From NCBI RefSeq assembly GCF_001922305.1, contig NZ_CP018839.1, positions 3,410,001 to 3,474,000 of the forward strand: a DNA stretch of 64,000 nucleotides. The letters are read 5' to 3'. Shown piece by piece: positions 36,579-54,069 of the stretch; the first letter of the stretch is position 1, and the number at the start of each line of letters is the position of its first letter. The stretch is from Thauera chlorobenzoica. Lineage in GTDB: Bacteria; Pseudomonadota; Gammaproteobacteria; Burkholderiales; Rhodocyclaceae. The position numbers and the translations under genes are program-made. Under the pieces are notes generated by a model that saw only the letters and a list, made by a program, of their open reading frames with translations, had not been told where the DNA came from and searched no databases.

Positions 36579-37409
36579 ATGTCGCCACAGAACGACGAAA
36601 GCCCCCAACCGCCACGTCCCGGTGGCGGGGACGATGCGCACGACAGCGCCGAACGCCCGTTCCCGACCGTGCGCACGGTCGGCCTCGGGGCCCCGCTGCG
36701 CTGGGTCGCACTCGGCGCCGGCGACCTCAGGGCCTGCCCGCTCCCCAGCCTGTTCTACGGCTTCTGCTTCGCCGCGATGGGCCTGCTCGTCACCATGGTG
36801 TTCCGCCGCGCCTACGAATACACCTTCGCCCTCACCACCGGCTTCCTGCTGCTCGGCCCCTTCCTCGCCATGGGCCTGTACGAGATCAGCCGCCGCCGCG
36901 AACTGGGCGCCCCCGCGGTGCTCGCCCCCACCCTCACCGTCTGGCGGCGCAATGCCGGCAACATCGGCGTGTTCGTGGTCGTGCTCGGCATCGTGTTCCT
37001 GGTGTGGGCGCGCGCGTCGATGGTCGTGTTCGCCCTTTTCTACACCACCGAGCTGCCTTCGCTGTCGGACTTCATCGGCCAGGTGCTCAGCCTGCGCAAC
37101 CTCGAATTCCTCGCGGTGTATTTCGGCGTCGGCCTCGTTTTCGCCGTCACCGTCTTCGCCGCCAGCGTGGTCTCGATTCCGCTGATGCTCGACCGCGACC
37201 AAGACGCCGTCAGCGCGGTGATCGCCAGTTTCAACGCGCTGCGGAGCAACCCGGGACCGATGCTGATATGGGCCTTCCTGATCGTGAGCCTCACCGGGGT
37301 CGGCTTTCTGAGCTTCCACGTCGGCCTGGTGGTGGTCATGCCCCTGCTCGGCCACGCCAGCTGGCACGCCTACCGCGATCTGGTCGAACCGCTTGTCATC
37401 GAGCGCTGA
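36579..37409 (+). CDS. DUF2189 multipass membrane protein
   Basis: Inner-membrane protein of 276 residues with about six helices (for example FYGFCFAAMGLLVTMVF, FLLLGPFLAMGLYEISRRRELG, IGVFVVVLGIVFLVWA). The block GPFLAMGLYEISRRRE with SFNALRSNPGPMLIWAFLIV is typical of DUF2189. A 35-residue hydrophilic N-terminus precedes the first helix. Function unknown. Strong ribosome site GAGGAGAGAG before ATG 36579. Confidence 0.85.
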   Translation: MSPQNDESPQPPRPGGGDDAHDSAERPFPTVRTVGLGAPLRWVALGAGDLRACPLPSLFYGFCFAAMGLLVTMVFRRAYEYTFALTTGFLLLGPFLAMGLYEISRRRELGAPAVLAPTLTVWRRNAGNIGVFVVVLGIVFLVWARASMVVFALFYTTELPSLSDFIGQVLSLRNLEFLAVYFGVGLVFAVTVFAASVVSIPLMLDRDQDAVSAVIASFNALRSNPGPMLIWAFLIVSLTGVGFLSFHVGLVVVMPLLGHASWHAYRDLVEPLVIER

Positions 37410-37540
37410 GGCGGCGCTTCGGGCGCCCCGTTCGGGCGGCGATCCACCGCCGGGGCGCCGCCCCCCTTCTGCAGAGGATCGGTCCGGACACCCCTCCGGC
37501 GCACTTGACGAGCATCTGCCAAAAGGCGATTTTTGCACCC

Positions 37541-37634
37541 ATGCGGCCCACTCGTCGCGCCCCTGCGGCCTTCATCCCCCTCTTCTGCCTGTTCACGCTG
37601 GCCCTGTGCCTGCTGCTGCCGGCCCGCGCCGCCG
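37541..37634 (+). pseudogene. Orphan signal-peptide coding fragment
   Basis: ATG 37541 opens a clear Sec signal peptide (RRAPAAFIPLFCLFTLALCLLLPARAA), but right after the cleavage site the sequence becomes the complement of an iron-sulfur protein fragment. The original exported protein is therefore lost and its identity cannot be told. TTGACG at 37506-37511 may be the remaining -35. The 131 bases between DUF2189 and this point hold nothing else recognisable. Confidence 0.55.
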
Positions 37635-37765
37635 ACACAGGTCTCGACGCAGGCCGGAAGCAGGCCGGCATCCACGCGATGGGCGCAGAACATGCACTTG
37701 TCGGCCTTGTTGGTGTCGTGGTTGATGAAGCGCGCGTCGCAGGGAGAATCGGAACAGGATTTCAT
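37635..37765 (-). pseudogene. Fragment of a DmsB-type iron-sulfur subunit
   Basis: On the minus strand about 38 residues read DARFINHDTNKADKC-MFC-AHRVDAGLLPACVETCVGGA in sense, with the Cys-x2-Cys-x11-Cys-x3-Cys spacing of the electron-transfer subunits of molybdopterin oxidoreductases (DmsB, TtrB, PsrB type). Both sides are cut: nothing of the other three cluster motifs is nearby and the frame runs on into the signal-peptide fragment. It marks a deleted or inverted oxidoreductase locus. From 37766 to 37985 no gene is seen. Confidence 0.65.
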
Positions 37766-37985
37766 GGCGGAACTCCAGAAGCCGTTGGCGTGGGAGTCAC
37801 TCTAGGCCTGCGATGGCCGTGCCAAAATTGGTGAAACAAGGCAGCGGACTAGACGGTTTTACCTATTGCGCCGCGCTCCCCTGCCAGGTCCGCCAGCGCG
37901 CGATCGGCGTAGTGCCCCGGAGCACCATCCCCCCCATCCGCGGCTCGCCGCATAATCGAGCCATCGATCACAGGGGCCGCCATCC

Positions 37986-38930
37986 ATGGCAGACGCGCAT
38001 CACGTCCGACATCATCACGACCACGGACACGGACATGACGACCACGCTGCCAGCCGCCACCTGCCGCTGGCCTTGGTTTTGACCCTCGGTTTCGCCGCCG
38101 TCGAGGCGGTGGCGGGCTGGTGGTCAGGCTCACTGGCCCTGCTCGGCGACGCCGGCCACATGGTCACCGATGCCTTGTCGCTCGGCCTCGCGGCCCTTGC
38201 CGCACGTATCGCGTTGCGTCCGGTCAGCCCGCGCCATTCCTACGGACTACGCCGCGTCGAAGCGCTGGCGGCCCTGGTCAACAGCCTTTTCATGCTGGCC
38301 GTCGTCGCCCTGTTGCTGTGGCAGGCGGTGCTCCGCCTGCTCGAGCCGCGCGAGATCGCGGGCCAGACCGTGACGCTGGTGGCGCTCGGCGGCCTCGTCC
38401 TGAATCTGGTCGTCGCCTGGCTGCTGACGCGCGGCGAGGGCGACCTCAACACCCGCGGCGCACTGCTGCACGTGCTCGGCGACCTGCTCGGCTCGGTCGC
38501 GGCACTGGCCTCCGGCCTCGTCATCCAGTTCAGCGGCTGGACGCCGATCGACCCGCTGCTGACCATGCTGATCTGCGGCCTGATCCTGTTCTCCACCTTG
38601 TCGCTGCTGCGCAACGTGCTCCACACCCTGCTCGAAGGCGTGCCCGACGGCCTGTCGCTGCCCGAAGTGGGACGCGCGATGGCCAGCGTGCCAGGCGTGT
38701 GCTCGGTACACGACCTCCACATCTGGAGCCTGGACTCGCGCCGCACCGCGCTCTCGGCCCACATCCTGCTGGCCGATGCGCGGCGCTGGCCCGACGTGCT
38801 GGAGGCCGAGCGTGCGCTTCTGCGTGGGCGTTTCGGTGTGGAACACGCCACACTGCAGCCCGAGATCTCCCTTGCCGAACCGATCATGTTTGCGCCACGG
38901 CGCTCCGGCACCGCCGACGATCGCGACTGA
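37986..38930 (+). CDS. Cation diffusion facilitator (CzcD/ZitB type)
   Basis: Inner-membrane antiporter that exports Zn2+, Co2+ or Cd2+. The 314-residue protein starts with a His-rich tail (HHVRHHHDHGHGHDDH), then six helices. The transport-site pairs are LLGDAGHMVTDALSL in the second helix and LLHVLGDLLGSVAAL in the fifth (HxxxD each). The C-terminal cytoplasmic domain contains VHDLHIWSLDSRRTALSAHI, a metal-sensing fold. No metal regulator is adjacent. Confidence 0.93.
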   Translation: MADAHHVRHHHDHGHGHDDHAASRHLPLALVLTLGFAAVEAVAGWWSGSLALLGDAGHMVTDALSLGLAALAARIALRPVSPRHSYGLRRVEALAALVNSLFMLAVVALLLWQAVLRLLEPREIAGQTVTLVALGGLVLNLVVAWLLTRGEGDLNTRGALLHVLGDLLGSVAALASGLVIQFSGWTPIDPLLTMLICGLILFSTLSLLRNVLHTLLEGVPDGLSLPEVGRAMASVPGVCSVHDLHIWSLDSRRTALSAHILLADARRWPDVLEAERALLRGRFGVEHATLQPEISLAEPIMFAPRRSGTADDRD

Positions 38931-39008
38931 CCGGGGCCCGCTCCGCCGCAGCAGGCCAAAACCCGCGTAAACAGCGGCTTCGAGCGCTCCGCGCACCCAT
39001 CAAAAACA

Positions 39009-39116
39009 TACTACATGTAGTACATAACGAAAAACAAATACACAAATAAAACACTCAACTATTTGTTTTTTAACATTTTTTATTTTTTTGCGAAATCGGA
39101 TTTTCCGCGCTATTCT
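39009..39116 (+). promoter_or_regulatory. AT-rich promoter region of class II ribonucleotide reductase with palindrome
   Basis: TTGCGA (39088-39093) and TATTCT (39111-39116) with a 17-base spacer make a good promoter just before nrdJ. Upstream, TACTACATGTAGTA (39009-39022) is a perfect 14-base palindrome whose core CTACATGTAG resembles NrdR boxes (CwAtATaTwG). Only one clear copy is seen, while NrdR usually binds two. The tract 39030-39090 is very AT-rich, in contrast to the rest of the chromosome. No cobalamin riboswitch was recognised. Confidence 0.5.
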
Positions 39117-39142
39117 TCAGTCCATCCCATGAACCACCACGG

Positions 39143-42061
39143 ATGAAGAAAAAGGCCATGAGCGAGACCAACAGCGCGTCCACGAGCACCCCCATCCAAG
39201 GCAGCGCCAAGCCCACCGCCGCCAACCTGCCGATGCAGGAAATCTCCGGCGAAGTCCTCGTCGAAAAATACGCCAAGGGCGACGAGCAGACCGTCGCCGA
39301 AGTGCGCCGCCGTGTCGCCTGCGCCCTGGCCGCGGTCGAAACCGAAGACAAGCACGCCCACTGGGAAGCGAAGTTCCTCGAAGCGCAGGAAAAGGGCTTC
39401 GTCCCCGCCGGCCGGATCAACAGCGCCGCCGGCACCACGCTCGCCGCCACCCTGATCAACTGCTTCGTGCAGCCGGTCGGCGATTCGGTCACCGAGGCGG
39501 TCGACGGCCGCCCCGGCATCTATACCGCGCTCGCCCAGGCCGCCGAAACCATGCGCCGCGGCGGCGGCGTCGGCTACGACTTCTCCTCCATCCGCCCCAA
39601 GGGTGCGCTGGTCAAGGGCACGGCCTCGAACGCCTCCGGTCCGGTGTCCTACATGCGCGTGTTCGACCGTTCCTGCGAAACGGTGGAATCGGCCGGTGCC
39701 CGCCGCGGCGCGCAGATGGGCGTGCTGCGCTGCGATCACCCGGACATCGAGGAATTCATCCACGCCAAGGATCACGGCGACCTCACCAACTTCAACATCT
39801 CGGTCGGCGTCACCGACCCCTTCATGCAGGCGGTCGAAGCCGACGGCTTCGTCGAACTCGCGCACAAGGCCGAGCCGACCGCCGAGCTGAAGGAAGCCGG
39901 CGCCTACCAGCGCGACGACGGCCTGTGGGTGTATCGCAAGGTGCGCGCGCGCGAGTTGTGGGACCAGATCATGCGGTCCACCTACGACCACGCCGAGCCG
40001 GGCATCCTGTTCCTCGACCGCATGAACCAGGACAACAACCTGTACTACTGCGAAACCATCGAGGCCACCAACCCCTGCGCCGAACAGCCGCTGCCGCCCT
40101 ACGGCTGCTGCTGCCTGGGCTCGATCAACCTGACGCCCTTCGTCAAGCACCCGTTCACCGACAAGGCCGAGTTCGACTACGCGGCCTTCGGCAAGATCGT
40201 CGACATCTCGATCCGGATGCTCGACAACGTGCTTGACAGCACCCACTGGCCGCTCGAGCAGCAGCGCGCCGAAGCCGACTCCAAGCGCCGCGTCGGACTG
40301 GGCTTCACCGGCCTGGGCGACGCCCTGATCATGCTCGGCAAGCGCTACGACACGCCCGAAGCGCGCGACGAGGCACGCAAGATTTCCGAGTACATGCGCA
40401 ACCGCGCCTACCTCGCCTCGTCCGATCTGGCCAAGGAGCGCGGCGCCTTCCCACTGTTCAACGCCGATCTCTACCTGTCGGGTGGCAATTTCGCCTCGCG
40501 CCTGCCGGCCGAGGTCAAGGACCGGATCCGCAAGCACGGCATCCGCAACTCGCACCTGCTGTCGATCGCGCCCACCGGCACCATCAGCCTGGCCTTCGCC
40601 GACAACGCCAGCAACGGCATCGAGCCGCCGTTCTCCTACACCTACACCCGCCGCAAGCGCATGGCCGACGGCACCTTCAAGGAGTACGCGGTCGAGGACT
40701 ACGCCTGGCGCCTGTACAAGCACCTTGGCGGCAACGTCGACAAGCTGCCCGCCCCCTTCGTCACCGCACTGGAAATTTCCGCCCAGGCGCACAAGGACAT
40801 GGTCGCCGCGGTCGCGCCCTACATCGACACCTCGATCTCGAAGACGGTGAACGTGCCGGAAGACTATCCCTACGCCGAGTTCGAGGATCTCTACCTCACC
40901 GCGTGGAAGGCCGGCCTCAAGGGGCTGGCCACCTACCGCCCGAACAGCGTCCTCGGTTCGGTGCTGTCGGTCACCCCGAGCACCGAGCAGAAGCAGCCCC
41001 ACGACGTCGAACTCTCCGACGCCAACCGCCGCCTGTCGATCAAGAGCCTGCCCGCGCCGGTGCTCGCCAGCCTGCGCTGGCCCGGCCGCCCCGAACTGCC
41101 CGACGGCAACCTCGCCTGGACCTACATGCTCAACACCCCGACCGGCGGCTTTGCGCTCTTCGTCGGCCAGGTCGGCAACAACGGCAGCTCGTTCCCGTTC
41201 GAAGTCTGGGTCAACGGCGCCGACCAGCCGCGCGGCCTCGGCGCGGTGGCAAAGACGCTGTCGATGGACATGCGCGCCAACGACCGCGGCTGGCTCAAGC
41301 TGAAGCTCGAGACCCTGGCCCGCACCGTCGGCGAGAAGTCCTTCGAGATGCCCTTCCCGCCGCACGGCGAGAAAAAGCTCGTGCCCGGCGTGGTGTCCGC
41401 CTTCGCCCAGGCGGTCAATTACCGCTGCGAAAAACTCGGCGCCTTCGACCACGAGGACGACACCAACCCGGTGCTCGACACCTTGTTCAGCCTCGACGAA
41501 CCGAAGACCGGCACCGACGGCACGCTGTCGTGGACGGTGGACATCTACAACCCGGCGACCGGCGAAGACTTCGTCCTCGGCCTGAAGGAGATCACCCTGC
41601 CGGCGCAGGACGGCTTCAGCGCCGGCGTCACCCGCCCCTATTCGATGTGGCTGTCGGGCAACTACCCGCGCGCGCTCGACGGGCTGTCGCGCATCCTCTC
41701 GCTCGACATGCGCGTCATGGACCCGGCGTGGATCGGCATGAAGCTCAGGAAGCTGCTCGACTACCCCGAGCCGCTGGGCGACTTCATGGCCTTCGTCCCC
41801 GGCACCCGCCGCCAGCAGAACTATCCCAGCACCGTGGCCTACCTCGCGCAGCTCATCATCCACCGCTATGCGATGCTCGGCGTGCTCGACGAGCGCGGTT
41901 ATCCGACGCGCGAAATGGGCATCCTCGAGTCACCGCGCGACGACAGCGAACCCAAGCTGATGCAGGGCACGCTGTGCGCCGAATGCGGCAACCACACCGT
42001 GATCCGCAAGGACGGCTGCGACTTCTGCACCGCCTGCGGTGCGGTCGGCACCTGCGGCTGA
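39143..42061 (+). CDS. nrdJ: Adenosylcobalamin-dependent ribonucleotide reductase (class II)
   Basis: Makes deoxyribonucleotides with coenzyme B12, with or without oxygen. The 972-residue protein shows [35 protein letters not shown], the active-site loop [21 protein letters not shown] with radical cysteine and glutamate, and [20 protein letters not shown]. After the barrel come two related beta modules (around [18 protein letters not shown] and [17 protein letters not shown]), resembling TSCPD domains, and a C-terminal zinc-type [28 protein letters not shown] tail for thiol exchange. ATG 39143 is given; ATG 39158 has AAAAAGG directly upstream and may be the true start. No class I or III subunits are nearby. 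Confidence 0.93.
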
Positions 42062-42213
42062 GCGCAGGCGGCGCCTCGCGCCGCGGCTGCTGTGGATTTA
42101 CGCATAAGCTGCGAGTTGGGCCCAAAAATCTGTGACTAAAGAAACCATAAATTGCGACATGGGAGCCTCAAGAAACAAAAATAGACGCGACGATTTTCAT
42201 GCCGCGTCCTCGA

Positions 42214-45200
42214 TCAGAATGACTGCGCCAGTGGTGCGCTGGTACAAAAGGCGACCCCTTCGACTAGCCAACCATCGCTGCCGCCGTCATTGAAATCGGC
42301 TGGATCGATCGCGTAACGGTGATTGGCATCGCGCCTCACCCCACCCACCACCTCTCCCGCATGCCCGTTATACGCCCGCAACACGGGGAAGGGGGCGACA
42401 TCCGGGCACTGGCCCAAAGCATCGGGCATGCGGATCGAAAAACCGATCCCCTCAAGATTCCATGCCGGCAACCCCGGCGGCGTCGCTGCCCGAAGCGCCA
42501 CCAGACCAGCGCATTCCAGCGCCGAGCCCGTGAAGAAATGGCTGTTCGGGCCGATCGATGGGTCGCCATAAAAACGACACACGGGGGAAAAACCCGGTTC
42601 GCTGGAATGGGCGGATGCCGCAGCAAACGCCCTGACGGTGGGAAACCATCCGTATTCGGGATGCGCAAGCAAAAGCGCCACCTCGACATCCTCTGCGCTC
42701 AGAAAATAGTGATTGAGGCCGGCGTGGTAAAACTCACGCACCACGGTTTCATCCGCCAGCGCCGGGACCGCCTTCTGCACTGCGATTTCCAGCCTGTCAT
42801 CGCTGCCTCCGGCGACCCTTGTGGCGCGGTACAGGCGCGACAAGGCAGCGCGGTCTCCATTGAGATTGGCGTCCAGGAAGGTCAGGTACCATGCATAGGC
42901 TTCGTCCATCACATCGGGATTATGGCCGTGGGCCATTCCCCGGACAGCCACCAAATAACGCGTTCCCTGAAGCCGGTCGACGGCCTCTTCGGTCATGTCC
43001 AGCGGCGCAACGTCGTCATCGGTGCCGGCAACGCCGATATAGGCGGCAGTCACACCGCGCGTGCCGCGCTGTTCATCACCGAAAGCAGGCAGCACCGACA
43101 CCCCCGAATAAGGTACAAAACCGAGGATCGCGCGCAACCTCGGCTCGCGGGTAACCTCCTTGCGCGAGCGCAGGAAATCGGTGGTCAGCTCGGCCCCGGC
43201 AAGCAACATCAAGCTCTCGCCACCAAGGCTCGCACCAAAACCGGCAACCCGCCCAGAGTCGATGAGAGGCCCGAAATCCGGTCGGGCAAGCAGATGATCG
43301 AGCAGCCCCTGAAGCGCCAGCGGGCGGATGGCCTGCATCTCCACCAGTTCTTCATCGTCCATCAGGAGATAGCGCAGGTCGTCCATGTCCTCGAGCTCGA
43401 TGCGGGAAATCCGCGCGTCAGCATGGAAGGGGGCGGCCACGACATAACCGTACGAGGCAAAACGTGCCATCGTCGATAAATAGTCGCCCCCCAACGGACT
43501 GCCGCCGAGGCCATGCGAATACAGCAGCAAAGGCCACCGAGCGGGTTCCGGACAAGCTTCCTCGCTGCAGCGCTCGGCCAGGATCGGCGCTTCATCTCCA
43601 CGCTGCATCGCCGGCACGCCGCTGCCATCGGGCAGCATGAAAGAGGCGCGCGGGTTGTCATCGGTGGTCGGGTAGCAAACCAGTGCCACGAACTCTACAT
43701 CGCGGGTGCGGAAATTACGGAAAAGCGTCCGGTCGTCCGGCGGGCGAACCACGTACCTGATGGCAAATTCAGGCTCGACCAGCAAATCGAACAGCCGCCC
43801 GAGCGGCTTGATCACCGTCTGGCACTCGCCCAGCAGCCGGTCCACCACGATTCCGGCCTGGCGCCCGGCGAAGCGCACCACCACCACGCTCTGGCGCGCA
43901 GGCGGTGTGCCTTCGATGGCGAACATCCGGCGCAGGCGCACGAAAGGCAGGGCCTGCTTGCGCAGGTTCAGGTAAGCCGCCTCGCCGACGCCGTCGGGCA
44001 GCTCGATGCATTCGAGCACCGCATCGAGCGGCAGGATGAAGCTGGCCTCGCCGACGCCAACCCTGAAACCGTCGATGATCGCCAGCGTCAGCGGCAGGCA
44101 CAGCCGCATCGTCGTGCCCCGCCCGGGCGTGCTGTGGATGTCGAGACTGCCGCGCAGGGCCTCGACATTGCTCTTGACCACGTCCATGCCGACGCCGCGC
44201 CCGGACAGGTTGGTGACCTGGCTGGCGGTGGAGAAGCCGGGCTCGAGGATCAGGCGATGGATCTCCGCCGTCGACAGATGGGCATCGGGCGCCACCAGAC
44301 CGCGCTCGACCGCCTTCGCAAAAATACGCCCGGCATCGAGCCCGGCGCCGTCGTCGGCCACTTCGATGACGATGCTGCCGCTTTCGTGATAGGCATCGAG
44401 CTGCAGCGTGCCGCGCGCCGGCTTGCCCGCCGTGAGCCGGCATTCGGGCGACTCGATGCCGTGGTCGATGGCGTTGCGCACCAAGTGCATCAGCGGATCG
44501 CCGATCTTCTCCACCATCGACTTGTCGAGCTCGGTTTCGGCGCCGCCGATGCGCAGCTCGATGTCCTTGCCCAGCTCGCGCGAGACGTCGCGCACCACGC
44601 GCGGGAAGCGGTTGAACACTTCGCCGATCGGCGTCATGCGCAGGCGCAGTGCGGCGTCGCGCACATCCTCGACCAGGCGCAGCAGGTTGGAGGCGGTCTC
44701 GTGCAGTTCGCGGCTGTTGGTCAGCTGCGCCTGCAACTGGGTCGCGGCGCCGGCGATCACCAGCTCGCCGACCTGGTCGATCAACGCATCGAGGCGGTCG
44801 GCCGGCACCTTGACGCTCTTGGCTTCGCGCGAGCGCCGCTCCTCGGCAGCACGCTGCTTGTCGAGCGCGGCCTCGACCACCTGCGGCTGCACCACCGCCT
44901 GCTCGACCAGCACCTGGCCCAGCCGCTGCGGCGGCACCGCGGCCTGCTGGCACGCCAGCGCCTGTTCCAGTTCGCGCGGCGTCAGCGAACCGCAGGCGAG
45001 CAGGATCTCGCCCAGCCGGCGCGGGTCCTCGTCAAGCGACTCGATCAGGGCGATGAAATCTTCGACGCGGCTGTTCGGCGGCACGATGGTGATCGTCGCG
45101 CTGTCCTGGACGAATTCGAACACGCTCTCGATCTCGGCCTTGCTCGCCGGGCTGCGCAGCGCCACTTCGAACCCCAGCCAGCACGCTTCCGGATCACCGG

Positions 45201-45810
45201 CCTCGAGACCGGGCAGCGCATCGGTGACGGTCTCGACATGGACGAGTTCGCCCAGCGTGCGCAGGTAGTGGATGAAGGACAGCGGGTCCATGCCGTTGCG
45301 CAGCACTTCGGGGCCGAAGCGCAGCGACAGGTGCCAGTGCTCGGCGCCGATCGGCACGCTGCTGCCGGCGTCCACGGTGCACACCGGTTCGCCCGCCGGC
45401 GGCGCGGCCAGCACCGCCCCACCGCCGGCTGCACCGGCGAAGGCCTGCAGCCGTGCCAGCAGCGGCGCCGCCTCGGTCTCCGGCACCGGGTCGCCGGCGG
45501 CGATCGCGGCGATCTGGTGGGCAATGTGGTCCTGCGCTTCGAGCAGCAGGCTCACCAGCTCGCCGGAAAACGCCAGCTCGCCGTTGCGCAGGCGATCGAG
45601 CACGTTCTCCACGCCGTGAGTGAAGCGCACCACCGCGTCCAGCCCGAACAGCCCCGCCGAGCCCTTGATCGTGTGGGCGCAGCGGAACAGGGCGTTCATG
45701 TCCTCGCCCCCCACTTCGTGGCTGTCGGCGTGGAGCAGGATGTCCTCCATCTGCGCGAGCAGTTCGCGGCTTTCTTCGAGGAAGGTGGCCAATGCCAGCG
45801 AAAGATCCAT
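42214..45810 (-). CDS. CheA-type histidine kinase fused to alpha/beta hydrolase and DUF5648-like tail
   Basis: A continuous frame of 1198 codons. Residues 1-674 are a CheA: Hpt domain with phospho-His46 (CAHTIKGSAGLFG), a middle segment, dimerisation helices (VKVPADRLDALIDQVGELVIA), the ATPase with HLVRNAIDHGIESPE, VADDGAGLDAGRI and GRGVGMDVVKSNVEAL, and a CheW-like domain that stops after TVIKPLGRLF, losing its last 60 or so residues. From residue 675 the protein becomes a secreted-type hydrolase without its signal peptide: LLLYSHGLGGSPLGG, nucleophile Ser861 in GFGASLGGES and HGHNP near the end, then an aromatic-rich tail (REFYHAGLNHYFLSA, CRFYGDP, SHFFTG) like DUF5648. Kinase function is doubtful because coupling to receptors needs the CheW fold. 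No frameshift is seen at the joint. Confidence 0.85.
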   Translation of the reverse strand: MDLSLALATFLEESRELLAQMEDILLHADSHEVGGEDMNALFRCAHTIKGSAGLFGLDAVVRFTHGVENVLDRLRNGELAFSGELVSLLLEAQDHIAHQIAAIAAGDPVPETEAAPLLARLQAFAGAAGGGAVLAAPPAGEPVCTVDAGSSVPIGAEHWHLSLRFGPEVLRNGMDPLSFIHYLRTLGELVHVETVTDALPGLEAGDPEACWLGFEVALRSPASKAEIESVFEFVQDSATITIVPPNSRVEDFIALIESLDEDPRRLGEILLACGSLTPRELEQALACQQAAVPPQRLGQVLVEQAVVQPQVVEAALDKQRAAEERRSREAKSVKVPADRLDALIDQVGELVIAGAATQLQAQLTNSRELHETASNLLRLVEDVRDAALRLRMTPIGEVFNRFPRVVRDVSRELGKDIELRIGGAETELDKSMVEKIGDPLMHLVRNAIDHGIESPECRLTAGKPARGTLQLDAYHESGSIVIEVADDGAGLDAGRIFAKAVERGLVAPDAHLSTAEIHRLILEPGFSTASQVTNLSGRGVGMDVVKSNVEALRGSLDIHSTPGRGTTMRLCLPLTLAIIDGFRVGVGEASFILPLDAVLECIELPDGVGEAAYLNLRKQALPFVRLRRMFAIEGTPPARQSVVVVRFAGRQAGIVVDRLLGECQTVIKPLGRLFDLLVEPEFAIRYVVRPPDDRTLFRNFRTRDVEFVALVCYPTTDDNPRASFMLPDGSGVPAMQRGDEAPILAERCSEEACPEPARWPLLLYSHGLGGSPLGGDYLSTMARFASYGYVVAAPFHADARISRIELEDMDDLRYLLMDDEELVEMQAIRPLALQGLLDHLLARPDFGPLIDSGRVAGFGASLGGESLMLLAGAELTTDFLRSRKEVTREPRLRAILGFVPYSGVSVLPAFGDEQRGTRGVTAAYIGVAGTDDDVAPLDMTEEAVDRLQGTRYLVAVRGMAHGHNPDVMDEAYAWYLTFLDANLNGDRAALSRLYRATRVAGGSDDRLEIAVQKAVPALADETVVREFYHAGLNHYFLSAEDVEVALLLAHPEYGWFPTVRAFAAASAHSSEPGFSPVCRFYGDPSIGPNSHFFTGSALECAGLVALRAATPPGLPAWNLEGIGFSIRMPDALGQCPDVAPFPVLRAYNGHAGEVVGGVRRDANHRYAIDPADFNDGGSDGWLVEGVAFCTSAPLAQSF

Positions 45811-45821
45811 GTCGTGCGTTC

Positions 45822-46166
45822 CTAATGCGGCGCGTCCGCGCCGGCGACCAGCAGCGGGTCGCCGAGCACGCCGCCCAGGTTGGCCAGCTCGAGCAGGCGC
45901 AGCACCGCGTCGGCGTGATTGACGAAGCGCACGGTCTTGCCCGCGCAGCGCTTGGCCATCAGCATCAGCTGCAGGCCGGCGGTATCGATCTCTTCGATGC
46001 GGCCGAGGTCGATCTCGATTTCGTCGTGCTCATGCAGCGCCGCCAGCCACTCGGCGCGCAGCCCGGTCACGGAATAGATGCTCAGCTCGCCCTCGGGCTC
46101 GAGGCGGAACGCGGCGGCAGGGGACGGCGGGGTCTGCCCGGCCGGCCGGGTTTGCGTGTTCATCAT
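45822..46166 (-). CDS. STAS-domain protein
   Basis: A 114-residue single-domain STAS protein, the fold of anti-sigma factor antagonists. Motifs are LSIYSVTGLRAEWLAALHEHDEIEIDLGRIEEIDTAGLQLMLMAKRCAGKTVRFVNH; the serine/threonine phosphorylated in SpoIIAA-type proteins corresponds to the threonine of EIDTAGLQ. It lies 7 bases after cheY and 11 bases before cheA, so it belongs to the same operon. Its role in the chemosensory array is unknown. Confidence 0.85.
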   Translation of the reverse strand: MMNTQTRPAGQTPPSPAAAFRLEPEGELSIYSVTGLRAEWLAALHEHDEIEIDLGRIEEIDTAGLQLMLMAKRCAGKTVRFVNHADAVLRLLELANLGGVLGDPLLVAGADAPH

Positions 46167-46173
46167 GCCGCGC

Positions 46174-46539
46174 TCACATGATCAGCTTGGCGACCGCGGC
46201 CAGCATCTGCTGCGGCTGGAAGGGCTTGACCACCCAGGCGCGCGCACCGGCCTCCTGCCCCAGGCGTTTCTTCTCCTCGGCGGCTTCGGTGGTGAGCATG
46301 ATCACCGGCGTGAACTTGTAGGCCGGGTTCTTCTTCACTTCGCGCACGAAGCTGATCCCGTCCATGTTCGGCATGTTCACGTCGGAAATGATCAGGTGCA
46401 CTTTCTGCCCGTTGAGCTTGGCCAGTGCGTCGCGCCCGTCGCAGGCGTCGATGACCTCGTAGCCCGCCCCCTTCAGCGCCATGCTCACCACCAGGCGCAG
46501 CGACGCCGAATCGTCGACGATCAGTACGGTCTTGGACAT
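46174..46539 (-). CDS. CheY-type response regulator
   Basis: A stand-alone receiver domain of 121 residues. Acid pocket residues are in LIVDDSASLR, the phospho-acceptor aspartate in LIISDVNMPNMDG, the switch threonine in VIMLTTEA and the lysine in WVVKPFQPQQ. It lies between the transducer and the STAS gene and is the expected phosphate acceptor of the adjacent CheA. AGGAG ribosome site upstream of ATG 46539. Confidence 0.92.
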   Translation of the reverse strand: MSKTVLIVDDSASLRLVVSMALKGAGYEVIDACDGRDALAKLNGQKVHLIISDVNMPNMDGISFVREVKKNPAYKFTPVIMLTTEAAEEKKRLGQEAGARAWVVKPFQPQQMLAAVAKLIM

Positions 46540-46553
46540 CCATGCTTCTCCTG

Positions 46554-47750
46554 CTAAAAGAATGTGATTTCCCCGCCCGCGGCGGCCTTGGCCGGCGCGC
46601 CCTTGCGGCCATGCTGCTCGAGCGTGGTGTAGGTGCGTTCCAGCTCCGCGACCCAGGCTGCGGCATCGATCGGTGCCGGCAGCTCGCCGCGCCGCCGGCG
46701 CGATTCGTCCTCGGCCACGCGCCCGGCCAGACGCGCCATATCGACGCCGACCGCAGACAGGATCTGGCTGACCCGATCCTGGAATTGCAGGTGGACGATC
46801 ACGCCCTCGACGCGCTGCTGCACTTCGGCACCGTTGCGCTCGAGCGCCTGTGCGCTCTGCTCCATCGCCGAACCGACGCGGTCGAAGCGCTCGAGCACGC
46901 GCCCGATCGCAGCCTGCGACTCATCGACCAGAATCACGTCGCGCTCGGCCATGCGCGCCGCGGCCGCCTGCGCCTCGGCCATCGCGGCGTGCGCCAGCTC
47001 GACCTTTTCGCGGATCCGCTCGCCGGTCGCCGCCGATTCGTTCGAGAGCGTGCGCACTTCGCTCGCCACCACGGCGAAGCCACGCCCGACCTCGCCCGCG
47101 CGCGCCGCCTCGATCGCCGCGTTGAGCGCCAGCAGGTTGGTATGCCTGGCGATCTGGCCGACTTCGCCCGCCATCCGCATCAGGTCTTCCGTCACCTTGC
47201 CCAGGCGCTCCACCGCCTGCGACAGGGTCTGCTTTTCGGCGAGCGCGGCATCGAGCCCGGCGAGCACGCCATCGAGTTCCGCGCGCGCATCGGCGATCAC
47301 GCCGACCACGCTGTCCTCACCGCCACGGGCGGCCGCGGCCTGGGAGCGGGCGAGGGTCTCGCCGAGGCGGTCGAGAATCTCGCCGAACGCCCCGGCGAGT
47401 TCACCGACCGCCGTTTCCATCTGGCTGCGCGAGAGCTCGACATGGCCGCTCCAGCGTTCGAGCGAAACCTGCGCCACCTGCTCCAGGCTCTCGGCATAAG
47501 CGATGTGCCCCCCCGCGGCCTCGTCCGCCGCGGGCCGCGGACGGAATGCGGCGCACCACAACCAGGTGCCCGCGACAAGCGTGAGCAGCGCCAGCAGGGC
47601 CGCCAGCAGTGCGCTCGCCAGCCCCACGCCGAACACGGCCACGGCGCCTGCGCCGAGCAGCCCCGGCCCCAGTGTCGCCGCGCCTCTGGCGACAGCCGAC
47701 GCGCCCCCGATCCGAATGTGTGACAGCACCCGCGACTCCCTTTCGATCAT
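46554..47750 (-). CDS. Methyl-accepting chemotaxis-type transducer without HAMP
   Basis: A 398-residue membrane transducer. A hydrophobic stretch near residues 25-70 ([36 protein letters not shown]) forms one or two helices with almost no periplasmic loop. There is no HAMP domain. The long coiled coil ends at the conserved tip [39 protein letters not shown], which contacts CheA/CheW. After it the molecule continues with [18 protein letters not shown], seen in CheA-associated short transducers. ATG 47750 is chosen over an upstream codon at 48044 because upstream sequence is not protein-like. Confidence 0.88.
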
Positions 47751-48098
47751 TCCGTGATGTGGCCCCGGTTTTCCGTCGCTACCCGCCTTCCACCCGCTGG
47801 GCGAAGGCCCGCGCCGCGCCGCCGCCCGGTGCGAAAAACCGCACAGCGGGCGCAGCGGCCATGGACCGGCCCGCATCCACTGCGATAGCATCCCCGCCTC
47901 GCCAATCGCCGCCTCCGGGAAAAGCCGCCCGCACCGCCGCCCGCCCTGAATGCTGCGGGCAAGCAGCGGGCAGGGCAATCCGGAAAATTCCCCGCCCGCC
48001 TCTAAGGATTTGGCGCGGGCCGGCCGATAGTGTTGGGGCGTCATCCCCCGAACGCGCCATACCGACTACGGCAAAAAGATGAGGAAGAAGGACCCCCC
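47751..48098. other. Divergent intergenic region between transducer and sensor kinase
   Basis: 348 bases without a supported gene. It contains a sigma-28-like promoter for the rightward kinase (48003-48030) and its ribosome site GAGGAAGAAGGA (48081-48092). No promoter for the leftward chemotaxis unit could be recognised. Confidence 0.45.
48003..48030 (+). promoter_or_regulatory. Sigma-28 (FliA)-like promoter
   Basis: TAAGGATT (48003-48010) and GCCGATAG (48023-48030) with a 12-base spacer match the flagellar sigma factor consensus TAAAGTTT-N11-GCCGATAA at 6 of 8 and 7 of 8 positions. It lies about 70 bases before the start of the sensor kinase gene. The neighbouring chemotaxis genes make FliA control plausible. 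Confidence 0.5.
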
Positions 48099-49610
48099 GT
48101 GCTGATTCGCACACAGCAATGGCTGATCGCCGCCGCCACCACCGTGGCCGTGGCGGCGATCGCGTGGGCATGGACGGAGTCATCGGCCGGATTCCGCCTC
48201 GAGCTCGAGCGCAGCCGGCTCGCCACCCGGATCTGGACGGCAGGCACCGCCCACCTTCGCCTGCACACGTCCACCTTTCTCGACAACGCCTCCGTTCAGG
48301 CCCAGGTCGACTGGCGCGAGAGCCACGCCGAACTGGCCCGCCTGCTCGCCACCGATCTGCTCGACGACGCACCGGGTGCGGCGACCCTGGTCGAGTTGCG
48401 CAACGATCACGCCGTCCTCTCCCCGGTGTTCGACACCCTGGTCGAATACCGCGTCGCCGAAACCGCGAGCTGGGTCTTCGACCCGGTGAACCAGGCCCAC
48501 CAGCGCGAGCTGACACGACGGATCGTGGCCCTGACCGAGCGCATCGCCGAAGGCAGCGGGACGCTGATGGCGCAGAGCCAGCAGCGGCTTGCGACGCTCC
48601 AGCACCGGCAGGAAACGCTGATGCTGGGCCTGATCCTCGCCCTCGCCTTCGCCATCGGGCTGAACTTCACCATCGTCCGCCACCAGATCCTGAAACCGGC
48701 ACGTCGGCTCGAACAGGGCGCACGCGCGATCGAAGCCGGGCACTACGGTCACCGCATCGGTCTGCACCGTGCCAACGAGCTCGGCACCCTCGCCCGCGAG
48801 TTCGACCACATGGCCGAATCGCTGTCCACCACCATGGCCGCGCTGCGCCAGCAAGGTGCCCAGCTGGCGCTCGCCAACCGCGAGCTGGAAAGCTTCAGTT
48901 ATTCGGTGTCGCACGACCTGCGCAGCCCCCTGCGCGGCATCGAAGGCTGGACCCGGGCCCTGCTCGAAGACTGCGGCGAACGACTCGATGCCAGCGGCCA
49001 TGAATACCTCGCTCGCGTGCGCGGCGAATGCGCACGCATGAACCTGCTGATCGCCGACCTGCTGCAACTGGCCCGGGTCACCCGCGACGAACTGCAACAG
49101 GAGTGGATCGATCTTCCGGCGCTCGCCGGACAAGTCGCCGCCCGCGCTCTCGAGGCCTGTCGCGGGCGCGACATCCACTTCGATATCCAGCCCGGCATCA
49201 AAGCCTGGGGCGACCGTCGCCTGCTCGAAATCGCATTGACCAATCTGTTCGACAACGCCTGCAAGTTTTCCGCCCGCGAACTGCAGGCCCGGGTCGCATT
49301 CGGGCGCTGCGTGGCCGAAAACCCGGCGACGCAGCAGCGCGAAGAAGCCTTTTTCGTGCGCGACAATGGCGCCGGCTTCGACATGGCCCATGCGCAACGA
49401 CTGTTCGGCGCCTTCCAGCGCATGCACTCCGAGAAGGAATTCCCCGGCACCGGCATCGGCCTGGCGATCGTCCACCGCATCGTCCTGCGCCACGGCGGCC
49501 ACATCTGGGCCGACGCCGAGCGCGGCCGGGGCGCCTGTTTCTACTTCACCCTGCCGCCACCGCCGGGGCCGGCTCCGGCGGCCGTCCGCAGCGCCGGAGG
49601 GCATGGCTGA
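48099..49610 (+). CDS. Membrane sensor histidine kinase with HAMP domain
   Basis: A 503-residue two-component kinase. TM1 is near residues 8-26 (WLIAAATTVAVAAIAWAW), a periplasmic sensor of about 150 residues follows, and TM2 (LMLGLILALAFAIGLNFTIV) leads to a HAMP (PARRLEQGARAIEAGHYGHRI). The phospho-acceptor histidine is in SYSVSHDLRSPLRGIEGW, of the phytochrome-like HisKA type, and the ATPase has NLFDNACKFSAREL and PGTGIGLAIVHRIV. GTG 48099 has GAAGGA upstream. It has no fused receiver; the next gene starts at its last base, so its phosphate probably goes to the downstream receivers. Confidence 0.9.
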   Translation: MLIRTQQWLIAAATTVAVAAIAWAWTESSAGFRLELERSRLATRIWTAGTAHLRLHTSTFLDNASVQAQVDWRESHAELARLLATDLLDDAPGAATLVELRNDHAVLSPVFDTLVEYRVAETASWVFDPVNQAHQRELTRRIVALTERIAEGSGTLMAQSQQRLATLQHRQETLMLGLILALAFAIGLNFTIVRHQILKPARRLEQGARAIEAGHYGHRIGLHRANELGTLAREFDHMAESLSTTMAALRQQGAQLALANRELESFSYSVSHDLRSPLRGIEGWTRALLEDCGERLDASGHEYLARVRGECARMNLLIADLLQLARVTRDELQQEWIDLPALAGQVAARALEACRGRDIHFDIQPGIKAWGDRRLLEIALTNLFDNACKFSARELQARVAFGRCVAENPATQQREEAFFVRDNGAGFDMAHAQRLFGAFQRMHSEKEFPGTGIGLAIVHRIVLRHGGHIWADAERGRGACFYFTLPPPPGPAPAAVRSAGGHG

Positions 49611-51103
49611 TGGGCGAGGCACCGGCAACCGCCCCCCTCGCCGCCCTGCTCGTCGAGGACTCCGAGAGCGACGCCCTGCTCGTGTTCCGCCAGCTGCGGC
49701 GCGCGGGCTTCGACGTCCGCCACGCCCGGGTCGAGACCGCCGAAGAGCTGCGTGCTGCACTGCATCAGAGCCGCTGGGACATCGTGCTGTCCGACTGCAG
49801 CCTGCCCGGCTTCGACGCCCGCGCAGCGCTGGAGGTGCTCCACAGCAGCGGCCAGGACATTCCGTTCATCGTCATCTCGGGCACGATCGGCGACGAGACC
49901 GCGATCGAGCTGATGCGCACCGGAGCCCACGACTACCTGATGAAGGGCAACCTCACCCGCCTGGGTCCGGCCGTGCAGCGCGAGATCGGCGAAGCGCGGA
50001 TGCGCGCCGAGCGCCGGCACACCCTCGCTGCGCTGCGCGACAGCGAAGCGAGCCTGCGCGAAGCGCAGCGCATCGCCGGGCTGGGGCAGTGGCGCATCGA
50101 TCCTCCGGGCGGACGCCTGTGGTGCTCGGACACCTTGTATGCGCTGTTCGGCCTCGAACGCGTCGACGAACAACACGCCCGCCATGCACTGCTGACCCGC
50201 ATCCACCCGGACGACCTTTGCGCCATGCGCCAGGCGCACCGCGAGCTGCAGGCCGGCGCCGAGCGTTTCGACATCGAGTACCGCATCCTCCGCACCGACG
50301 GCAGCCTGCGCCACGTGCGCGAGTGCGCCGCCCGCGCAACGGCGGAAGACGGCAGCGGCACGCGCCTGATCGGCACCCTCTACGACATCACCGCGCAAAA
50401 GGCCGCCGGCGAAGCACTGCAGACGGCAAACGCCCGCCTGCGCCGGCTCTCCGGCCGCATCCTCGACGCCCAGGAGGCGGAGCGGCGCGAAGTCGCGCGC
50501 GAACTGCACGACCAGATCGGCCAGGCCCTGACCGCAGTCAAGCTCGAGCTGCAGGGCATGGCACCCTCGATCGGGGACGATCCGGCTGCCCGCCGGCTCG
50601 CTTCGGCGATCCACATCACCGAGGAAGCGCTCGCCCAGGTCCGCGGCCTGTCGCTCAACCTGCGCCCGCCCCAGCTCGACTACATGGGGCTCGAAGCCTC
50701 GCTGCGCTGGCACGCCGAACGCCAGTGCGAGCGCGCCGGCCTGGCGCTGGCGTTCCGCTCCTCGCTGGGCTCGACACGGCTGGACACGCGCATCGAGATC
50801 GTCTGCTTCCGCCTGATGCAGGAGGCCGTCACCAACATCGTCCGTCACGCGCACGCCGGCCGCGTGGGCATCGAAGTCGGGCTGCACGGCGACCGCCTGG
50901 AGCTGGGCGTGCACGACGACGGCCACGGTTTCGACGTCGACCAGGCGCGCCGGCGCATGCTCGAAGGCAGGAGCGTCGGCCTGTTGGGCATGGAAGAGCG
51001 TGCCGCCCTGATCGGCGGCGAAGTCGCGATCGAATCCACCGCGGGCCGGGGCACCCAGGTCCGGGTCGTGCTGCCGGCAACCGGCGAGAGCCCACAAGGA
51101 TAG
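49610..51103 (+). CDS. Receiver-PAS-NarX-type histidine kinase
   Basis: A 497-residue hybrid with inverted order: an N-terminal receiver (ALLVEDSESDALLVFRQL, phospho-Asp in VLSDCSLPGFDA, DYLMKGNLTRLGP), a PAS domain (EAQRIAGLGQWRIDPPGG to GTLYDITAQKAAGEAL) and a HisKA_3/HATPase module with phospho-His in REVARELHDQIGQALTAVK and MQEAVTNIVRHAHA, VGLLGMEERAALIGG. No membrane segment, so it is cytoplasmic. It is coupled to the upstream kinase by a one-base overlap and followed after 6 bases by its likely NarL-type partner. The design suggests a relay from the membrane kinase through this receiver. Confidence 0.9.
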   Translation: MGEAPATAPLAALLVEDSESDALLVFRQLRRAGFDVRHARVETAEELRAALHQSRWDIVLSDCSLPGFDARAALEVLHSSGQDIPFIVISGTIGDETAIELMRTGAHDYLMKGNLTRLGPAVQREIGEARMRAERRHTLAALRDSEASLREAQRIAGLGQWRIDPPGGRLWCSDTLYALFGLERVDEQHARHALLTRIHPDDLCAMRQAHRELQAGAERFDIEYRILRTDGSLRHVRECAARATAEDGSGTRLIGTLYDITAQKAAGEALQTANARLRRLSGRILDAQEAERREVARELHDQIGQALTAVKLELQGMAPSIGDDPAARRLASAIHITEEALAQVRGLSLNLRPPQLDYMGLEASLRWHAERQCERAGLALAFRSSLGSTRLDTRIEIVCFRLMQEAVTNIVRHAHAGRVGIEVGLHGDRLELGVHDDGHGFDVDQARRRMLEGRSVGLLGMEERAALIGGEVAIESTAGRGTQVRVVLPATGESPQG

Positions 51104-51109
51104 ACCGCC

Positions 51110-51763
51110 ATGGACAAACTGCGCGTACTGCTGGCGGACGACCACAGCCTGGTGAGAGCGGGCATCCGCGCGCTGCTCGAAACGATGGCCCGGGTCGAGA
51201 TCGTCGGCGAAGCCAGCGGCGGGCGGGCAGCGATCGAGCTGGTGCGCGCGCACCGTCCCGGCATCGTATTGATGGACATCGCGATGGACGACATGGATGG
51301 CCTGACCGCCACCCGCGCGATCACCGCAGAGCACCGCGCGGTGAAAGTCATCGTCCTGTCGATGCACGACACCGGCGATTTCTTCGACCAGGCGCTGCGC
51401 TGCGGGGCGCGCGGCTACCTGCTCAAGGACGCGGCGGTGGCCGAGCTGGAAATGGCGCTTTCCGCAGTCGAGCGCGGCGACGTCTACCTGAGCCCGGCGG
51501 TCTCGCGCCACGTGGTCGGCAACCTGCTGGCGCGCGGCACCACCGAAGAACGCCCTGCCGCCGTGCTGACCCCGCGCCAGAACGAGATCCTGCAGCTGAT
51601 CGGCAACGGCCGCGGCACCAAGGAGATCGCCCGCCAGCTCGAACTCAGCGTCAAGACGGTGGAAGCGCACCGGGCCCAGATCATGGAGCGCCTGGGGGTG
51701 CGCGACATCGCCAACCTGCTGCTCGAAGCGGCCCGCCGCGGCCTGATCGTACTGGGACGCTGA
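51110..51763 (+). CDS. NarL/FixJ-type response regulator
   Basis: DNA-binding regulator of 217 residues. Receiver: LLADDHSLVRAGIRALLE, phospho-Asp in GIVLMDIAMDDMDG, VIVLSMHDTGDFF, GARGYLLKDAAVAELEMAL. LuxR-type helix-turn-helix: LTPRQNEILQLIGNGRGTKEIARQLELSVKTVEAHRAQIMERLGV. It is the output for the HisKA_3 kinase encoded just upstream. Target genes are unknown. Confidence 0.93.
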   Translation: MDKLRVLLADDHSLVRAGIRALLETMARVEIVGEASGGRAAIELVRAHRPGIVLMDIAMDDMDGLTATRAITAEHRAVKVIVLSMHDTGDFFDQALRCGARGYLLKDAAVAELEMALSAVERGDVYLSPAVSRHVVGNLLARGTTEERPAAVLTPRQNEILQLIGNGRGTKEIARQLELSVKTVEAHRAQIMERLGVRDIANLLLEAARRGLIVLGR

Positions 51764-51921
51764 TTCCCCGGGTGCCGCCCCCTGACGCACCGGTTCGCCC
51801 CGCCCCTCCCCACCCCTAGGGCCGCCTCGGTAATCCGCCCGATGGACACGAGTGCGGATTGCCGTAGCATCGGCACTCTGACAATCCTGCCTTCACCGGG
51901 CACGAAAGACGGGACACACGG

Positions 51922-54069
51922 ATGACGACCAAACTCGACCTGCTGCTGGTGGAGGACAATGCGAGCGATGCCGGACTGATCGTGCGCCACCTGCGAAAGG
52001 CCGGCTTCGAGTTCGATTACGTGCAGATCGACACCGAGCCGGAGCTGCGCTCGGCGCTGCAGCAGCGCCGCTGGAGTGCGGTGCTGTGCGACTACTCGCT
52101 GTGCGGTTTCGATGCCGGGGTTGCGCTCGACGCCGTGCAGCAGACCGGCTTCGACCTGCCCTTCATCGTCGTTTCGGGCGAAATCAGCGACGACAAGGCA
52201 AGCCGTCTGATGCGCGCCGGCGCCCATGATTACGTGATGAAGGACAACCTCGCCCGGCTCGCCCCCGCGCTCGCGCGCGAGCTCGACGAAGTGCATCAGC
52301 GCCGCGCCCGGCGGGCAGCCGAGCGCAGCGCGGACGAACACGCCCGCCGCCTGCAGCGCTCGCAGCAGGTAATCGACAGCCTGCGCGAAGGGATCACGGT
52401 CACCGACCTGCAGGGCACCATCGTCGACGTCAACCCGTCCTTCGAGCTCATCACCGGCTACAGCCGCGCGGAAGTGCTCGGATGCAACCCGCGCATCCTG
52501 AAATCCGGCCGCCACCCCCCGGCGTTCTATGAAACCCTGTGGCACACCCTGGTCACCACCGGCACCTGGCGCGGCGAGATCTGGAACCGGCGCAAGAACG
52601 GCGAGATCTACCCCGAGCTGCTGACGCTGAGCGCGGTCAGGGGCGACGACGGCCTGCCCACCCACTACGTCGCCGTGTTCAGCGACCTGAGCAAGGAAAA
52701 GCAGACCGAAGCGCACATCCACTGGCTGACCAATCACGACGCCCTCACCGGGCTGGCCAACCGGCAGCTGTTCATGGACCGCCTGCAGCAGGCGATCGAA
52801 GCCGCCGAAAACAGCGATCAGGACGGCGCCGCGGTGCTGCTGCTCGATCTCGACCGCTTCCGCCGGATCAACGAAAGTCTCGGCCAGGAAGCCGGAGACA
52901 AGCTCCTGCAGCACATCGCCGAACGCATTCAGTCCTGCCTCAGGGGGCGGGCCAGCGCGGCACGGCTGGGCAGCGACGAATTCCTCGTGCTGCTTCCCCA
53001 GTTCGCCGACACCGACGCCATCGCCGCCTGCGCACATCGCATCCTCGACGAGATCGCCCGCCCCTGCATGATCGGCGGCCACGAGATCAGCGTCACCGCA
53101 AGCCTGGGCATCAGCGTCTTTCCCGACGACGGGCGCAGCGCGGCCGAGCTGCTGCGCGCGGCCGAAGCCGCCCGGGCGCCGATCCGGCACGGCCATCACA
53201 ACCGCCTGCACTTCTTCACCAGCGGCATGGACAACCAGGCCCGGCGCTGGATGGAAATCGAAAGCGAACTGCGCCAGGCGCTCGAGCGCCGGGAGCTGCA
53301 GCTCTACTACCAGCCGCTGCTCTGCGCCCGCGACGGCCGCATCCGCAGCCTGGAAGCCCTGGCGCGCTGGCACAGCCCGGTGCTCGGCTGGGTCTCGCCG
53401 GCCGAATTCGTGCCTGTCGCCGAGGAATCCGGCCTCATCGTCGACATCGGCGACTGGGTGCTGCGCACCGCCTGCGCCCAGGCCCGGCGCTGGCAGGACG
53501 ACGGGCTGCCGCCGGTGCGGGTGGCGGTCAACGTCTCCGCCCACCAGATCGCCACCGGCGCCCTGCCCGAACGCATCCGCGAAGTGCTGGCACGCACTGG
53601 GCTTCCTGCCGGTCAGCTCGAAATCGAGCTGACCGAAAGCACGATGATGGCGGACACCGAATTCGCATCCGCCCAGGTCGAGACGATCAGCCGCATGGGC
53701 GTCAGCGTGGCGCTCGACGATTTCGGCACCGGGTATTCATCGCTCGCCTACCTCAGCCGGTTCGCGCTCAACAAGGTGAAGATCGACCGCAGCTTCGTGC
53801 ACAAGCTCGCGTCCGACCCGAAAAGCACCACCATCATCGCCGCCACCGTCGGCCTCGCCCGCGGTCTGGGCCTGCAGGTGGTGGCCGAGGGCGTCGAGAC
53901 CGAGGCGCAGCAACGCACCCTGATCGCTGCCGGCTGCGATGCGCTGCAAGGCTATCTGTTCAGCCCGCCGGTCGCCGCTGCCGACCTGTCCCGCCTGACC
54001 GCACTGTTCGCGCCCTGCGAACCCTACGCCACGCCCCTGCCGGGACGCTCCGCCCCCGCACCCGGCTGA
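51922..54069 (+). CDS. Receiver-PAS-GGDEF-EAL protein
   Basis: Cyclic di-GMP signalling protein of 715 residues, cytoplasmic. The N-terminal receiver (LLLVEDNASDAGLIVRHLRKAG, phospho-Asp in VLCDYSLCGFDA, DYVMKDNLARLAP) is closely related to that of the hybrid kinase upstream. A PAS follows (VIDSLREGITVTDLQG, YPELLTLSAVRGDDG). The GGDEF motif reads ARLGSDEFL, so it may not synthesise c-di-GMP. The EAL domain looks complete: SLEALARWHSP, ELTESTMM, LDDFGTGYSSLAYL, KIDRSFVHKL, VAEGVETEAQQ. Net activity is therefore probably phosphodiesterase. It follows the NarL-type regulator after 158 bases. Confidence 0.92.
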   Translation: MTTKLDLLLVEDNASDAGLIVRHLRKAGFEFDYVQIDTEPELRSALQQRRWSAVLCDYSLCGFDAGVALDAVQQTGFDLPFIVVSGEISDDKASRLMRAGAHDYVMKDNLARLAPALARELDEVHQRRARRAAERSADEHARRLQRSQQVIDSLREGITVTDLQGTIVDVNPSFELITGYSRAEVLGCNPRILKSGRHPPAFYETLWHTLVTTGTWRGEIWNRRKNGEIYPELLTLSAVRGDDGLPTHYVAVFSDLSKEKQTEAHIHWLTNHDALTGLANRQLFMDRLQQAIEAAENSDQDGAAVLLLDLDRFRRINESLGQEAGDKLLQHIAERIQSCLRGRASAARLGSDEFLVLLPQFADTDAIAACAHRILDEIARPCMIGGHEISVTASLGISVFPDDGRSAAELLRAAEAARAPIRHGHHNRLHFFTSGMDNQARRWMEIESELRQALERRELQLYYQPLLCARDGRIRSLEALARWHSPVLGWVSPAEFVPVAEESGLIVDIGDWVLRTACAQARRWQDDGLPPVRVAVNVSAHQIATGALPERIREVLARTGLPAGQLEIELTESTMMADTEFASAQVETISRMGVSVALDDFGTGYSSLAYLSRFALNKVKIDRSFVHKLASDPKSTTIIAATVGLARGLGLQVVAEGVETEAQQRTLIAAGCDALQGYLFSPPVAAADLSRLTALFAPCEPYATPLPGRSAPAPG

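Follow-up and report, generated by a model that had tools for sequence, protein, structure and literature searches.

The locus described here raises the question of whether a gene that joins a sensory kinase to a hydrolase in one open reading frame represents a new enzyme architecture or the remains of two older genes. The frame lies in a 64,000-nucleotide stretch of the Thauera chlorobenzoica genome (positions 3,410,001–3,474,000 of contig NZ_CP018839.1), hereafter the window, to which coordinates refer unless another genome is named. It encodes most of a CheA kinase followed by most of a secreted-type alpha/beta hydrolase. An initial annotation, made from the DNA alone, had offered either a deletion scar or a chimera in which the kinase switches the hydrolase. 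The analysis presented here indicates that the fused gene is very probably a rearrangement scar specific to this lineage and not a new kind of enzyme. This reading follows from the intact, separate parent genes in a sister genome, the loss of che genes, breakpoints resolved to the base, a rearranged region, the lack of a second fusion in the sets searched and a joint that is predicted to be disordered.

The minus-strand frame from 45810 to 42214 comprises 1198 codons with no internal stop, as initially annotated. Its parts are the following.

43787..45810, minus strand: CheA part, codons 1–674 plus two bases
Within the CheA part, minus strand, residues from Pfam: Hpt 7–96, P3, HATPase 438–575 and truncated CheW-like P5 582–676
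43786..43788, minus strand: joint codon 675 (GAT), with GA common to the CheA (GAG) and hydrolase (GAT) parents in a base-by-base comparison with the sister genome
42214..43788, minus strand: hydrolase part, the last 524 of 597 residues, with Ser861, Asp932, His961 and a DUF5648-like tail
42214–42216, minus strand: hydrolase stop codon

The first half shows Pfam matches to Hpt (PF01627; 63.8 bits over residues 7–96), H-kinase_dim (PF02895), HATPase_c (PF02518) and a CheW-like domain. The motif HTIKGS at residue 46 marks His46 as the phospho-accepting residue, and both the dimerization and the ATPase domains are present, with the motifs of the N, G1, F and G2 boxes at 446, 486, 525 and 537. The P5 domain, through which a CheA couples to CheW and receptors, is incomplete: the match to PF01584 covers profile positions 3–105 of 138, compared with 136 of 138 reached in the intact CheA of Thauera aromatica (P0003), in agreement with the annotated end of the kinase (residues 1–674) inside the CheW-like domain. 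The hydrolase begins at residue 675 and matches PAF-AH_p_II (PF03403) above the cut-off of that family. Ser861, which had been named as the nucleophile, lies in the motif GASLGG and is identical in all 13 aligned hydrolases, as are Asp932 and His961, suggesting that the latter two are its catalytic partners. The DUF5648 score of the tail is below the 25-bit cut-off in the window (20.0 bits) and in the T. aromatica orthologue (23.2 bits) but above it in the relative P0002 (56.3 bits), so that the earlier label 'DUF5648-like' is a fair one. When solved structures were searched by sequence, nothing matched the hydrolase half significantly (best E value 0.22).

Comparison with relatives, which the initial annotation had proposed as a check, covered the window's own genome (G000) and 60 others. 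In G012, a genome of the same genus that is assigned to T. aromatica by the name of one of its proteins (alpha/beta hydrolase family protein), each half is an open gene of its own; the two share a strand and are separated by 48 kb. The CheA half matches 2419076–2421103 with 93% identity and the hydrolase half matches 2369367–2370938 with 97% identity; in longer alignments, window 43787–47758 is 91.9% identical to T. aromatica and window 42202–43788 is 96.2% identical to 2369349–2370935. Relative to these parents, the fusion lacks the last 48 residues of a CheA of 723 residues (P0003) and the first 73 of a hydrolase of 597 residues (P0122). The missing 73 residues include an apparent signal peptide (judged by eye and not by a predictor), consistent with the N-terminal loss noted earlier, and no export signal is left on the hydrolase. 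Within the genus, relatives of the hydrolase occur in three of 29 genomes and are full length only in G000 and T. aromatica, the third match (G017) being weak (E value 9.2 × 10−4 over 65 residues). The CheA matches of G010, G008, G021 and G024 end at residue 676.

The two parental sequences meet within codon 675, a slight correction to the initial annotation. From 43688 to 43788 the window shows no mismatch to the T. aromatica hydrolase, and from 43787 upward it follows the T. aromatica CheA with few mismatches. The base preceding the shared GA is the same in both parents but different in the window. The joint is an illegitimate joining with 2–3 bp of microhomology. Since the other two phases run into a stop after 30 and 5 codons, the open frame across the joint is roughly a one-in-three accident.

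Gene loss accompanies the joint. Downstream of the T. aromatica cheA, and on its strand, lie genes for an MCP, CheW, CheR, CheD and CheB; all five are absent from the window locus, in which the kinase has no CheW, receptor or CheR/CheB of its own. The genes upstream of cheA are still present.

45822..46166, minus strand: STAS-domain protein (Pfam), directly upstream of cheA
46174..46539, minus strand: CheY-like response regulator (Pfam), upstream of cheA
46554..47744 scanned, open frame to 48044, minus strand: MCP signalling-domain protein with no recognised sensor domain

When three 19-kb pieces of T. aromatica (2369001–2426000) were compared with the window's genome, scoring 40 of the 435, 743 and 860 first-look candidates, respectively, the longer matches beyond the syntenic blocks were only 65–75% identical and the others were short. 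Relocation of the missing DNA within the genome was rejected, as only such weaker matches were found among the scored candidates. A 74% match over 2985 bp between G000 1382458–1385442 and an oxidase-like region of T. aromatica is taken to be a probable paralogue from its low identity and not from a tree. Elsewhere, the window's genome carries a separate cluster at 436–443 kb in which Pfam identifies CheW, CheR, CheB and a CheA (the scanned stretch did not reach its Hpt end), with CheY- and CheZ/FlhB-like frames by eye, and a further CheA with a CheW-domain protein near 1023–1026 kb. Given these other che genes, loss of the accessory cluster should be tolerable, and the 436–443 kb cluster should be the one that carries chemotaxis. 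Beside the che remnant, a run of genes at window 48030–54069 looks by eye to encode sensor kinases, response regulators and GGDEF/EAL-type proteins.

The surroundings of the fusion are rearranged in several places.

39143..42061, plus strand: ribonucleotide reductase, adjoining the hydrolase piece on the left and named nrdJ by eye
42167..42214, minus strand: 48 bp adjoining the hydrolase 3' end, probably left over from the 3' end of an IS110-family element (81% match)
37504–37632, no strand given: remnant of 129 bp, equivalent to T. aromatica 2397359–2397487
37622–37744, no strand given: remnant of 123 bp, equivalent to T. aromatica 2404475–2404597
37747–37872, no strand given: remnant of about 127 bp, equivalent to T. 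aromatica 2405014–2405139

Relative to nrdJ, the hydrolase piece is on the right in the window and on the left in T. aromatica. A simple 48-kb deletion as the whole explanation was rejected on these grounds, and the proposed scar that removed cheW/cheR/cheB-type genes is therefore upheld as to the gene loss, by the T. aromatica gene order, but not as a single deletion. Alignment with T. aromatica equates the window's left flank up to 37390 with sequence up to 2368390, window 38943–42087 (nrdJ) with 2405259–2408401 and window 43787 onward (cheA) with 2419080 onward. In the interval 37390–37872 the sources of successive pieces are separated in T. aromatica by gaps of about 29, 7 and 0.4 kb, and the short remnants at 37504..37872 appear to mark further, repeated deletion joints to the left of nrdJ. 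Matches to nrdJ were found in all seven other genomes queried (in two pieces in G057), and the orientation of nrdJ (plus) and cheA (minus) is kept in G010 and G008, in which the two genes are about 31 and 66 kb apart; the close spacing in the window is thus derived. The T. aromatica gene beside the hydrolase (2368459–2369306) is kept at that place in G010 and G008. A cation-efflux (CDF) gene at window 37986–38930 aligns at the same place in G008 and G010 and not in the compared T. aromatica region.

Between nrdJ and the hydrolase, 114 bp are unaligned to the compared T. aromatica region; a query with window 42070–42215 gave no T. aromatica match at an E value of 0.001 and matched three of seven genomes (itself, G008 and G021). 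The 48-bp match stops exactly at the end of an element defined by four copies (one in G008 and three in G021), the transposase of which is of IS110 type (PF01548 and PF02371); the final 13 bp of the match fall within sequence that aligns to T. aromatica as well. No full IS110 element was found in either G000 or T. aromatica, so that the 48 bp are at most a remnant, probably one of an insertion sequence (IS) at the border of the moved piece. In G008, the IS110-family copy (L099:1540–2587) lies at the edge of a short-repeat array that looks CRISPR-like by eye.

These observations suggest the following course of events. The ancestor would have resembled T. aromatica: on the right of nrdJ, a cluster encoding an MCP-like protein, CheY, STAS, CheA, MCP, CheW, CheR, CheD and CheB, and on the left, the gene of a secreted-type alpha/beta hydrolase. 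In the window's lineage, a 1.6-kb 3' piece of the hydrolase gene would then have moved to just right of nrdJ, possibly by means of an IS110-type element; the same order would also result if the hydrolase-to-nrdJ region was duplicated in tandem and then suffered deletions, and the choice between the two is a matter of inference. Everything between this piece and the last CheA domain would subsequently have been lost by illegitimate joining, the frame staying open by the one-in-three accident described above; the breakpoints are those observed, and the order of the steps is a reconstruction. Any protein made from the fused gene would thus be a CheA whose array-coupling domain is broken and which lacks the partners that the sister encodes beside it, carrying a cytoplasmic hydrolase without an export signal. 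Most likely, it would phosphorylate the neighbouring CheY at a basal level at best, and its hydrolase would serve no useful function.

The same fusion, which the initial annotation proposed to seek in other genomes, was not found again. Matches occur in 57 of the 61 genomes, and among the matches listed only the window spans both halves; recurrence of the same domain order in independent genomes, as expected of an evolved enzyme–kinase chimera, is thus absent from them. A search of 5.8 billion proteins aimed at residues 560–1198, with 8000 candidates scored, gave no protein with both halves among the best 120 of 1147 hits; the window's own fusion is itself unlisted, so the set may lack its genome. 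The best hit (83% coverage) contains the hydrolase and DUF5648 domains only. A scan of GTDB contigs, which may omit records near the window's own genome, found hydrolases of 42% identity at two loci, both in deltaproteobacterial metagenome-assembled genomes. Among the papers listed for CheA with hydrolases, gene fusion and chemotaxis, for DUF5648, for T. aromatica chemotaxis and for the T. chlorobenzoica genome, none deals with this fusion in its title or abstract opening.

For the fused protein, AlphaFold (37 sequences; mean pLDDT 80.7, pTM 0.49) predicts two folded halves connected by a disordered joint, with a pLDDT of less than 50 for residues 666–704. In the underlying alignment (A1) the CheA tails lie on 38–66 hydrolase columns and the hydrolase N-termini on 99–126 CheA columns, so that the model is weak evidence at the joint. 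A hydrolase strand completing the broken P5 was considered and rejected from the low pLDDT of 666–704, within the limits of this model. In a Foldseek search (best 50 rows) CheA chains rank first, followed by cutinase/PETase-like hydrolases (13–19% identity) among other histidine kinases.

Several results weigh against a scar. That no other copy was found counts for little, since close relatives are few, each species is represented by one genome and the protein search did not list the window's own fusion either, which also weakens its silence about other strains. The branch omega of CheA, estimated from 667 codons with G010 and G008 as outgroups and 1000 codon bootstraps, is 0.187 (95% interval 0.100–0.306) in the window and 0.206 (0.116–0.379) in T. 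aromatica. Polarised amino-acid changes in CheA number nine in the window versus eight in T. aromatica, and those in the hydrolase number six on the fusion side and five on the T. aromatica side, with five ambiguous. The fused gene is therefore not visibly decaying; the substitution data fit both a recent fusion and a CheA half that is still constrained. With the T. aromatica branch as the intact standard, the neutral share of the window's CheA branch is at most 13% (95%) or 17% (97.5%). Pairwise omega between G000 and T. aromatica is 0.195 for CheA residues 1–672, 0.113 for the hydrolase, 0.076 for nrdJ, 0.023 for CheY, 0.386 for STAS and 0.350 for the MCP-like gene. Polarised changes in the window versus T. 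aromatica are three versus four for the MCP-like gene, one versus none for CheY and five versus six for nrdJ; those of STAS (three versus none) lean to the window's branch, at few sites. Pseudogene decay was rejected, there being no excess of change on the window's branch for CheA or the hydrolase. Since both halves are open without such an excess, the fused gene is either young or partly still in use.

A CheA half that still works as a kinase, phosphorylating itself and the adjacent CheY, perhaps borrowing CheW and receptors from other che systems and carrying the hydrolase as a passenger tolerated at its C-terminus, would be compatible with a scar origin and is possible but doubtful. The CheA motifs looked for are present, its branch omega is not raised and the upstream MCP-like, CheY and STAS frames are open, with a CheY omega of 0.023 between the sisters; on the other hand, P5 lacks its last 48 residues, the genes for CheW, MCP, CheR, CheD and CheB are gone, the few STAS changes fall on the window's branch and the low CheA omega is equally explained by a recent fusion. 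The more ambitious proposal of the initial annotation, a cytoplasmic hydrolase switched by or localised through the sensory kinase, gains no positive support and is very improbable: although the frame is open, Ser861, Asp932 and His961 are conserved and both halves are predicted to fold, the fusion occurs once in the sets searched, its array-coupling domain is truncated and its partner genes are gone, the hydrolase lacks 73 residues that include the export-signal-like start and the joint is predicted to be disordered. There is likewise only a slim chance that the accident was kept, such that a CheA core free of arrays still phosphorylates its neighbour CheY and has gained a cytoplasmic esterase, with the CheA dimer setting where that esterase lies or how it oligomerises; this would be an enzyme–kinase chimera seen shortly after its origin.

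Two further alternatives concern how the joint arose. An assembly artefact joining two distant sites could be suspected, as the joint is almost without homology, the fusion is a singleton and its support is the assembled sequence and not raw reads. This is nevertheless hardly to be expected in a genome assembled as a single contig of 3,735,506 bases (99.99% complete), with several local rearrangements and diverged remnants (86.8–94.5% identity) instead of one odd join; moreover, none of the candidates scored elsewhere in the genome was a near-identical copy of the sister DNA that is missing here, which a misjoin alone would not cause. In a variant of the scar explanation, the hydrolase was ancestrally to the right of nrdJ and moved in T. 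aromatica, the fusion in the window being a local deletion only. This would require the window's lineage to have undergone only a single deletion, at the joint, but it is unlikely given that the T. aromatica copy lies between a conserved gene and a divergent S8 peptidase with DUF5648 and looks like the original module, while the window copy is flanked by the IS-like end and the truncated joint. The S8 peptidase gene (L037:2226–4505 of G012) is divergent to that of the hydrolase, so that two different enzymes side by side share the DUF5648 tail.

A lineage-specific scar is thus the preferred explanation, and it shows, with base resolution, how one Thauera-type lineage has dismantled an accessory chemosensory cluster whose upstream half is still open. 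It also cautions against reading domain fusions from single genomes as new architectures. Should the fused protein be produced and retained, its parents would be known and the fusion itself very young.

The kinase half has its Hpt, P3 and P4 domains and the catalytic motifs looked for in common with the T. aromatica CheA (P0003, 723 residues), the Escherichia coli core unit (6s1k) and CheA-289 (1b3q), and the order of upstream CheY, STAS and MCP-like genes in common with the T. aromatica cheA locus. Unlike an intact CheA, its P5 is cut after about three quarters and the last 48 residues are exchanged for the hydrolase. The other half shares the GXSXG serine, the aspartate, the histidine and the tail with PAF-AH_p_II alpha/beta hydrolases, also named 'dienelactone hydrolase', that carry a DUF5648 tail (P0122 of T. 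aromatica and P0123–P0129), with 96% DNA identity to the P0122 gene over 1587 bp; it differs from them in lacking the first 73 residues and in having a kinase as its N-terminal partner. Deletions and rearrangements are generally known to leave chimeric open frames at their joints. The present frame resembles them in its illegitimate joint, microhomology, intact separate parents in a sister genome and adjacent gene loss, and differs in that 1198 codons happen to stay open and one partner has also moved across nrdJ.

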